From: a virus
DNA: 20,379 nt
Reading direction: 5' to 3' (one strand)
IMG/VR virus record: IMGVR_UViG_3300022907_001428
Coordinates: 1-20,379 of that record
Under the pieces are notes generated by a model. That model was not told where the DNA came from and searched no databases. It was given only the letters and a program-made list of their open reading frames with translations. Position 1 is the stretch's first letter, and each line of letters starts with the position of its first letter. Both the position numbers and the translations under genes were made by a program. This document shows positions 6,630-7,195 of the stretch, piece after piece.

Positions 6630-6650
6630 AGGGCCTTAGGGCCCTTTTCT
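6630..6650 (+). terminator. Rho-independent terminator after the prohibitin-like gene
   Basis: The perfect stem AGGGCC/GGCCCT with a TTAG loop (6630-6645) is followed by TTTTCT. It separates the prohibitin unit from the tmRNA promoter only two bases downstream. Confidence 0.85.
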
Positions 6651-6651
6651 C

Positions 6652-6682
6652 TTGACAAACACTTAATACCAGTGTATAAATA
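6652..6682 (+). promoter_or_regulatory. Promoter of the permuted tmRNA gene, with overlapping late-type box
   Basis: TTGACA (6652-6657), a 17-base spacer and TATAAA (6675-6680) form a strong sigma70-like promoter. The -10 box also reads TATAAATA (6675-6682), the exact T4 late promoter core, so one start site may serve host-type and late phage transcription. The predicted start is near 6687, where the acceptor piece of the tmRNA begins. Confidence 0.75.
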
Positions 6683-6686
6683 GTAT

Positions 6687-6749
6687 TGTAACGTTGAAGC
6701 AATTTGACGACTGAACTGGACCCGGGTGCGATTCCCGGCAGCTCCACCA
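6687..6749 (+). ncRNA. ssrA: tmRNA acceptor piece (3' part of a permuted ssrA)
   Basis: The end of this piece has the tmRNA T arm and acceptor end. The T stem CCGGG/CCCGG surrounds loop TGCGATT, and then CAGCTCC (6739-6745) is followed by ACCA (6746-6749) with the CCA encoded. CAGCTCC pairs with GGGGCTG at 6860-6866, 110 bases downstream, giving a seven-pair acceptor stem with one G-U pair. The order 3' piece, spacer, 5' piece is that of circularly permuted tmRNA genes of alphaproteobacteria and some cyanobacteria, whose product is two RNAs. The 5' boundary is estimated from the promoter. Confidence 0.87.
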
Positions 6750-6762
6750 AAAGGATACTACT

Positions 6763-6858
6763 GTGAGTAATACAACTTACTTAAAGTTACAGCGCATACT
6801 ACTGCCCATAGCAGGCATACTTATGCTTATTGGAACAGTTAGTTTAGTATTTTTTTGA
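6763..6858 (+). CDS. 31-codon membrane-peptide ORF in the tmRNA intervening sequence
   Basis: An open frame of 31 codons lies wholly between the two tmRNA pieces. AAAGGA sits seven bases before a GTG start, and the TGA stop ends one base before G1 of the coding piece (6860). The peptide has a short polar start (MSNTTYLKLQR), then a hydrophobic run (ILLPIAGILMLIGTVSLVFF) able to span a membrane. The good ribosome binding site and exact fit to the spacer suggest a real gene, but a chance ORF in a processed spacer cannot be excluded. Confidence 0.5.
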   Translation: MSNTTYLKLQRILLPIAGILMLIGTVSLVFF

Positions 6859-6859
6859 T

Positions 6860-7016
6860 GGGGCTGATCAGGATCGACAGGCAGGATAGAAGAGTGGAGT
6901 TACCGGGATGTAAGCGCCGTACCGCGAACAAACTTTATAATTGCAGAAGCAAATATAGCATTAGCAGCCTAAGGGCAGCTACGAGGTAGTTAGACCTTGT
7001 TACCAAACATAGCAGG
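6860..7016 (+). ncRNA. ssrA: tmRNA coding piece (5' part of a permuted ssrA, with tag reading frame)
   Basis: The piece begins GGGGCTGATCAGGATCGACA, close to the conserved tmRNA 5' end (acceptor strand and D-arm region). It carries a tag frame ending GCA TTA GCA GCC TAA (stop 6970-6972). The tag reads TNFIIAEANIALAA, possibly with an Arg or Ala before it; the resume codon is near 6925-6928 but not certain. The ALAA end is the classic ClpXP/ClpAP degron. The 3' boundary is set by the terminator hairpin and is approximate. tmRNA rescues stalled ribosomes with SmpB. The tag is unlike known alphaproteobacterial ones in its middle. Confidence 0.9.
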
Positions 7017-7042
7017 AAAGGCACCTTCGGGTGCTTTTCTTT
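7017..7042 (+). terminator. Terminator of the tmRNA transcript
   Basis: AAAGGCACC/GGTGCTTTT (one G-U pair) closes a TTCG tetraloop at 7026-7029 and runs into a T-rich stretch. It immediately follows the tmRNA coding piece. Confidence 0.85.
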
Positions 7043-7049
7043 TGACTTC

Positions 7050-7082
7050 TTTCTTTGGACACGGGGTATCTTTCTTTGGACA
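7050..7082 (+). repeat. Two direct copies of TTTCTTTGGACA
   Basis: TTTCTTTGGACA occurs at 7050-7061 and 7071-7082, 21 bases apart (two helical turns), in the spacer between the tmRNA terminator and the next promoter. Spacing on one face of the helix would suit a protein-binding site, but only two copies are seen. Confidence 0.5.
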
Positions 7083-7100: not shown

Positions 7101-7128
7101 TTGCTAACTTACTAAATAGATGTATAAT
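7101..7128 (+). promoter_or_regulatory. Promoter for the small hairpin RNA
   Basis: TTGCTA (7101-7106), a 16-base spacer and TATAAT (7123-7128) form a sigma70-like promoter. A CTAAATA late-like box lies at 7112-7118 within it. The start site would be about 7135, just before the hairpin. Confidence 0.6.
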
Positions 7129-7134
7129 AGTAAA

Positions 7135-7195
7135 CACAATAAGAAGGCGACCCAGTTAGCGATGCAAAAAAGGCTGACACAGGTCGCCTTTTTTT
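7135..7195 (+). ncRNA. Short hairpin RNA candidate, or terminated leader
   Basis: A composite hairpin pairs AAGGCGACC (7144-7152) with GGTCGCCTT (7182-7190), and inside it GTTAGC (7155-7160) with GCTGAC (7173-7178, one G-U). The two stems are separated by a 2/3-base internal loop and capped by a 12-base A-rich loop. Seven T residues follow, so a transcript from the promoter at 7123 would end here as an RNA of about 60 bases. It could be a free small RNA, or an attenuating leader for the secreted-protein gene at 7229. The sequence matches no RNA family I know. Confidence 0.55.

Follow-up and report, generated by a model that had tools for sequence, protein, structure and literature searches.

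A Phage Permuted tmRNA Whose Intervening Segment Probably Doubles as a Small Protein Gene

In a circularly permuted tmRNA gene the acceptor piece comes first and is separated from the mRNA-like piece by an intervening segment (IVS) that is absent from the mature molecule. Is the IVS of a phage tmRNA simply discarded, or can it carry a gene of its own? The question is raised by a 20,379-base sequence from an uncultivated aquatic phage (the window), which contains a single tmRNA gene, circularly permuted and located at approximately 6652 to 7040 (the gene, its promoter and terminator, and the features of its IVS are on the plus strand). The initial annotation had proposed a complete two-piece tmRNA carried by a phage, and covariance-model searches confirmed it. 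Rfam model RF04321 (tmRNA_permuted) matched positions 6688 to 6972 with 96.5 bits against a cutoff of 47 (E = 5.6e-18) and RF01850 (beta_tmRNA) matched 6649 to 7040 with 87.7 bits against a cutoff of 84 (E = 1.5e-25), both scores being far beyond chance, and ARAGORN agreed, placing a permuted tmRNA with the tag AEANIALAA at 6657 to 7063.

The acceptor (3′) piece, GGACCCGGGTGCGATTCCCGGCAGCTCCACCA, occupies 6684 to 6749 and comprises one P2 strand, the T arm, the acceptor strand CAGCTCC, and ACCA, with the CCA end at 6749, and the mRNA-like (5′) piece, GGGGCTGATCAGGATCGACA, starts with GGGGCTG at 6860 and extends to 7017. As had been claimed, CAGCTCC and GGGGCTG form seven pairs across the two pieces, among them G3-U70, the alanine identity element. 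In a relative, L002, one acceptor pair is changed on both sides (G to C 9 nt before the start of the IVS, C to G 114 nt after it), and this compensatory change provides direct evidence for pairing between the strands of the two pieces. The P2 helix between the pieces, which joins GUAAC (6688 to 6692) to GUUAC (6899 to 6903), is present as five pairs in the RF04321 alignment, where some further model pairs are nonstandard. Unconstrained cofolding of the two mature pieces did not recover P2 or the tmRNA fold and was not significant (z = −1.6); the fold assignment rests on the covariance models, not on cofolding. The T loop (6724 to 6738) reads TGCGATT, not TTCGATT (U55 to G), and that of another relative, L225, reads TGCGACT.

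Other features that had been described around the tmRNA stood only in part. The tag frame identified by ARAGORN (6943 to 6972) does end in ALAA-stop, a degradation-signal ending, but the tag as originally given, TNFIIAEANIALAA, was too long, including codons upstream of the resume codon; the correct tag is AEANIALAA. A promoter sequence, TTGACA-17 bp-TATAAA, is present ahead of the acceptor piece at 6652 to 6680 as a consensus match, although it is missing from the output of the promoter scanner, which demands a T at position 6. The supposed late-type box, TATAAATA, overlaps this promoter at 6675 to 6682, but a single copy in 20 kb (chance mean, 1.83) is no more than chance, and a late-promoter regulon was therefore rejected. 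Downstream, a terminator-like hairpin with a T-rich tail (7018 to 7040) forms the last helix of the RF01850 match. Beyond the terminator lie two copies of the direct repeat CTTTCTTTGGACA (7049 to 7081) and, at 7101 to 7195, a promoter-like TTGCTA-16-TATAAT followed by a GGCGACC..GGTCGCC hairpin and a T run, possibly a small RNA unit of ~60 nt. The window also carries a ferredoxin-dependent bilin reductase gene (PF05996; 17829 to 18518) and GroEL, IMPDH/GMPR, peroxiredoxin, and Band_7 genes.

The tmRNA had further been considered notable as a permuted phage example and informative about the host lineage. The permuted form of the tmRNA gene is well established (PMC11915505), and a 2022 report (PMC9004378) describes two-piece tmRNAs in marine and aquatic phages (53 of 133 phage tmRNA structures, 50 of them from aquatic phages) and phage tmRNAs that sometimes mismatch the host lineage, which makes the window's tmRNA a weak pointer to its host. 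Scanning IMG/VR for the acceptor end, without selection for a Shine-Dalgarno sequence, we found permuted tmRNAs in at least about 65 contigs. Given these dozens of contigs and the 2022 report, the window's tmRNA alone is an ordinary new member of a known group. The unexpected part, missed by the initial annotation, is a protein ORF that fills the IVS.

The IVS is 110 nt long (6750 to 6859) and is bounded by the CCA end and the GGGG start of the mRNA-like piece. Its first bases after CCA are a Shine-Dalgarno sequence, AAAGGA (6750 to 6755), found at the same position in dozens of relatives, and a GTG start codon at 6763 opens a frame of 31 amino acids, MSNTTYLKLQRILLPIAGILMLIGTVSLVFF (6763 to 6858), that closes with UGA at 6856 to 6858, one base ahead of the GGGG; Shine-Dalgarno sequence, start, and stop thus all lie within 6750 to 6858. 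The product is predicted to form one membrane helix (mean hydropathy of the best 17-residue stretch, 2.41). An alternative is that the frame is open by chance and that the window holds an ordinary permuted phage tmRNA whose spacer is kept only for its processing stem. In dinucleotide shuffles that kept the start and stop in place, 8% of the sequences stayed open, and a chance of 0.08 for openness alone suits that explanation; only 0.125% were both open and at least as hydrophobic (p = 0.00125), which argues against it, as does the positioning of the Shine-Dalgarno sequence, start, and stop such that the ORF fills the IVS. By themselves, the shuffle statistics for the window ORF are suggestive only. 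Searches of PHROG and Pfam with the window peptide gave nothing above noise, and tblastn searches of GenBank phages with this and other IVS peptides returned nothing but a match of the peptide of another locus, L194, in the phage Melnitz.

How widely such ORFs occur also bears on the possibility of a chance frame. Among the matches listed from the scan described above, the less biased sample, a contained ORF near CCA was present in about 6 of the 65 permuted tmRNAs from phages. A set of 93 IMG/VR stretches had been preselected for a Shine-Dalgarno sequence right after CCA, and most recognizable permuted tmRNAs in it have an ORF starting there. Fifty distinct IVSs with an ORF near CCA (a count that takes in L248, a bacterial MAG contig) fell into 26 automatic clusters of ~20 to 96 amino acids; because L161 and L205 join family F1 through a second ORF, the number of independent families is somewhat lower, about 25. 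In sampled genomes of one proteobacterial phylum, 30 permuted tmRNAs had IVSs of 6 to 116 nt, none with an ORF inside (0 of 30). Across 84,980 genomes of bacteria and archaea, the same pattern found a permuted tmRNA once, in L248, a count that is understated because variants of the acceptor and T arm that occur in the proteobacterial control escape the pattern. A second bacterial control, from the phylum of a supposed Microcoleus MAG, yielded nothing above cutoff and was left out of the comparison. In isolated-phage regions the IVS was readable in 9 of 12 cases, and a contained ORF of at least 18 residues was found in 0 of 9. This absence of a contained ORF from most phage IVSs and all sampled bacterial ones, many with the same stem, is what a chance frame would lead one to expect.

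The relatives of the window ORF are identical copies, and the lack of a diverged homologue again fits a chance frame; selection can be assessed in sister families instead. We used an approximate test that sets the changes along a minimum spanning tree against those expected if the same base changes fell at random. Synonymous changes were in excess in F2 (22 synonymous and 43 nonsynonymous; 11.8 synonymous expected; p = 6e-4), F3 (42 and 37; 20.1 expected; p = 2e-4), and F4 (6 and 0; 1.4 expected; p = 4e-4). F1, a membrane family whose products end VYLVFF-stop and whose layout is that of the window, gave 21 and 20 (11.4 expected; p = 6e-4) in a first set and 63 and 72 (34.0 expected; p = 1e-4) when enlarged to nine distinct members. 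For the copies of the IWHILLTVC family (that of the L194 ORF) inside IVSs, the figures were 101 and 95 (46 expected; p = 2e-4), with 57, 26, and 113 changes at the first, second, and third codon positions. In five families the excess was confined to the predicted frame, the other frames never being significant. Two further sets fell short of significance: the short ORF that comes first in the F1 IVSs (19 amino acids, ..EEPPSPRGK; p = 0.31) and F6, with two members (p = 0.08). By this comparison of sequences, five sister families are shown to be under purifying selection at the protein level, and the match of the window's design to theirs argues against a chance frame.

Another argument comes from L225, in which the window's 110-nt IVS recurs with 100% identity while the tmRNA flanks match at 0.73 and 0.66 in a loose alignment and the tag differs. 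The same contrast between IVS and flank similarity was seen in L216/L212 and L147/L142. An IVS identical between diverged tmRNAs is not what a chance frame predicts, and the identity in L225 may reflect recent recombination rather than selection. The shared IVS is most simply read as the outcome of recombination at the conserved ends, although this is not proven. L225 also matches the window's bilin reductase region. All in all, we consider a chance frame unlikely and conclude that the window IVS is very probably the coding sequence of a tiny membrane protein.

The L194 ORF shows that a protein found in an IVS can also occur outside one. It matches gp85 (59% identity, E = 7e-16), a protein of the cultivated phage Melnitz whose gene is annotated as free-standing and ends just upstream of the Melnitz tmRNA. 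We found 80 relatives, 57 of them free copies and 23 inside an IVS, the latter assigned by motif (16 copies) or by a stem-type ending together with the GGTCCACC/GGGCCTG acceptor (seven copies, of which the four inspected were Rfam confirmed). A permuted tmRNA was present elsewhere in the fetched stretch for 30 of the 80, nearly always 276 to 755 nt downstream, and several other relatives lie between tRNA genes. The ending S[MV]SL-stop (UCUUUAUGAU), which the stem requires, occurs in 23 of 23 IVS copies and 0 of 57 free copies; because it is confined to the IVS copies, the RNA stem appears to have shaped the C-terminal end of the protein there. The tree of the relatives is compatible with differing numbers of entries into the IVS. 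The tmRNA of the phage Mosig is similar to that of L194 and has a 50-nt IVS with no ORF, and the 150-nt IVS of Melnitz has an unannotated ORF (MFKWLSKTRLVVITRDYFRERNRKADAKIPKYLSG..).

How could one RNA be both translated and processed? The first 11 bases of the window IVS (6750 to 6760), which contain the Shine-Dalgarno sequence, pair with 6845 to 6855, the codons for ..VFF, in a predicted precursor stem. Most phage IVSs of at least 40 nt have such a stem, of ~11 pairs, extending the acceptor stem; the mean was 10.8 pairs in IVSs with an ORF, 10.6 in those without, and 1.5 in shuffled sequences. In thermodynamic predictions, the unpaired probability of the Shine-Dalgarno sequence was 0.68 in a nascent RNA ending at 6800, 0.01 in the full precursor, and 0.11 in the excised IVS, and that of the GTG start codon in the predicted structure was 0.14 to 0.16. 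A GTG codon, and one predicted to be mostly paired, counts against the ORF. Because the Shine-Dalgarno sequence is predicted to be free in the nascent RNA and paired in the full precursor, we propose that the RNA is translated first and matured afterward. A single transcript from the promoter at 6652 to 6680 would carry the acceptor piece, the mini-gene, and the mRNA-like piece in that order. The Shine-Dalgarno sequence would emerge from RNA polymerase right behind CCA and stay free while the RNA was nascent, allowing ribosomes to make a 31-amino-acid single-pass membrane protein. When transcription had passed the ORF and ribosomes had cleared its end, its last codons, UAGUAUUUUUU, would pair with the Shine-Dalgarno arm, AAAGGAUACUA, and the closed stem, extending the acceptor stem, would stop translation and offer the RNA to tRNA-processing enzymes, which would cut after CCA and before GGGG. 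We infer the translation, its timing, and the membrane location of the product, and our best guess is an accessory protein acting on the host membrane. Taken together, these results make it likely that this is a phage permuted tmRNA whose IVS doubles as a protein gene, the precursor serving first as an mRNA and then as a tmRNA.

The same stem could be read differently. The ORF might be translated mainly for regulation, with a ribosome on the IVS blocking the processing stem in a leader-type control of maturation and the peptide being incidental. A stem built from the Shine-Dalgarno sequence and the last codons, in a layout common to many unrelated ORFs, would suit such control, but the conserved amino acid sequences of at least five families, together with the free-standing homologues, argue for a role of the products themselves, and we think this explanation improbable. 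We also doubt that the excised IVS is itself the messenger. The expected cut sites, after CCA and before GGGG, coincide with the ORF boundaries and would release a mini-mRNA that begins with the Shine-Dalgarno sequence and, in the window, also contains a stop codon; the existence of families whose ORF runs on also fits. However, the Shine-Dalgarno sequence would be mostly paired in the excised IVS, and so short an RNA would probably be unstable. In the run-on families (F2, F3, and others such as L082 and L074), the ORF continues through GAU into the mRNA-like piece, so that the excised IVS would be a stopless message and a substrate for the very tmRNA from which it had been cut.

Frames also extend beyond the IVS in other ways. 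In L031, L064, and L066 the frame crosses the IVS into the mRNA-like piece and the usual stem is absent (..YYYTENEWSRLG..GPLPPERNKQLLTNEYGGD); here a permuted tmRNA perhaps overlaps a protein gene. The IVSs of L074, L149, L166, and L173 have a second frame, with an MSL start, that spans the whole mRNA-like piece into the tag (..ANDDIYALAA) and is broken in L180 and L211.

Our preferred reading, a protein gene within the spacer, departs from the systems already described. Like other RF04321/RF01850 permuted tmRNAs, the window has the acceptor piece first, an IVS, the mRNA-like piece, G3-U70, and an ALAA tag, but the sampled bacterial IVSs are short and enclose no ORF, whereas that of the window is filled by one. 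Melnitz and Mosig, likewise aquatic phages with a complete permuted ssrA, have no IVS ORFs mentioned in the portion of the 2022 report drawn on here (PMC9004378). Group I introns in tmRNA that carry homing endonuclease genes (PMC11915505) also place a protein gene within a removed part; here, in contrast, there is no intron and no endonuclease match, and proteins of ~20 to 96 amino acids are encoded in the permutation spacer with the Shine-Dalgarno sequence in the processing stem. A homing-endonuclease origin had no support, as the window's T arm is uninterrupted and no endonuclease match was found among the IVS ORFs searched. A tRNA-Ala gene or a repeat element inside an IVS (PMC11915505) is, like the window ORF, foreign IVS content, but these are single cases and not selected protein genes. 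Searches of an open-access literature collection turned up no description of protein genes in an IVS, which does not prove novelty.

For aquatic phages generally, we regard as evenly balanced the broader proposal that the permuted-tmRNA spacer serves as a general expression slot, in which mini-gene cassettes would be swapped by recombination at the conserved acceptor ends and each precursor would be a switch RNA, messenger and then tmRNA, in which the Shine-Dalgarno sequence contributes one of the two strands of the processing stem. A segment regarded as a disposable by-product of RNA processing appears, in many phages, to hold a protein gene, and such genes have probably been overlooked because annotation assigns the same bases to either the tmRNA or an ORF. 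The window would be a compact case of one RNA acting as both messenger and tmRNA precursor, with a conflict between translation and maturation, and the IVS ORFs point to a set of uncharacterized mini-proteins in phages, of which several are predicted to be membrane helices.
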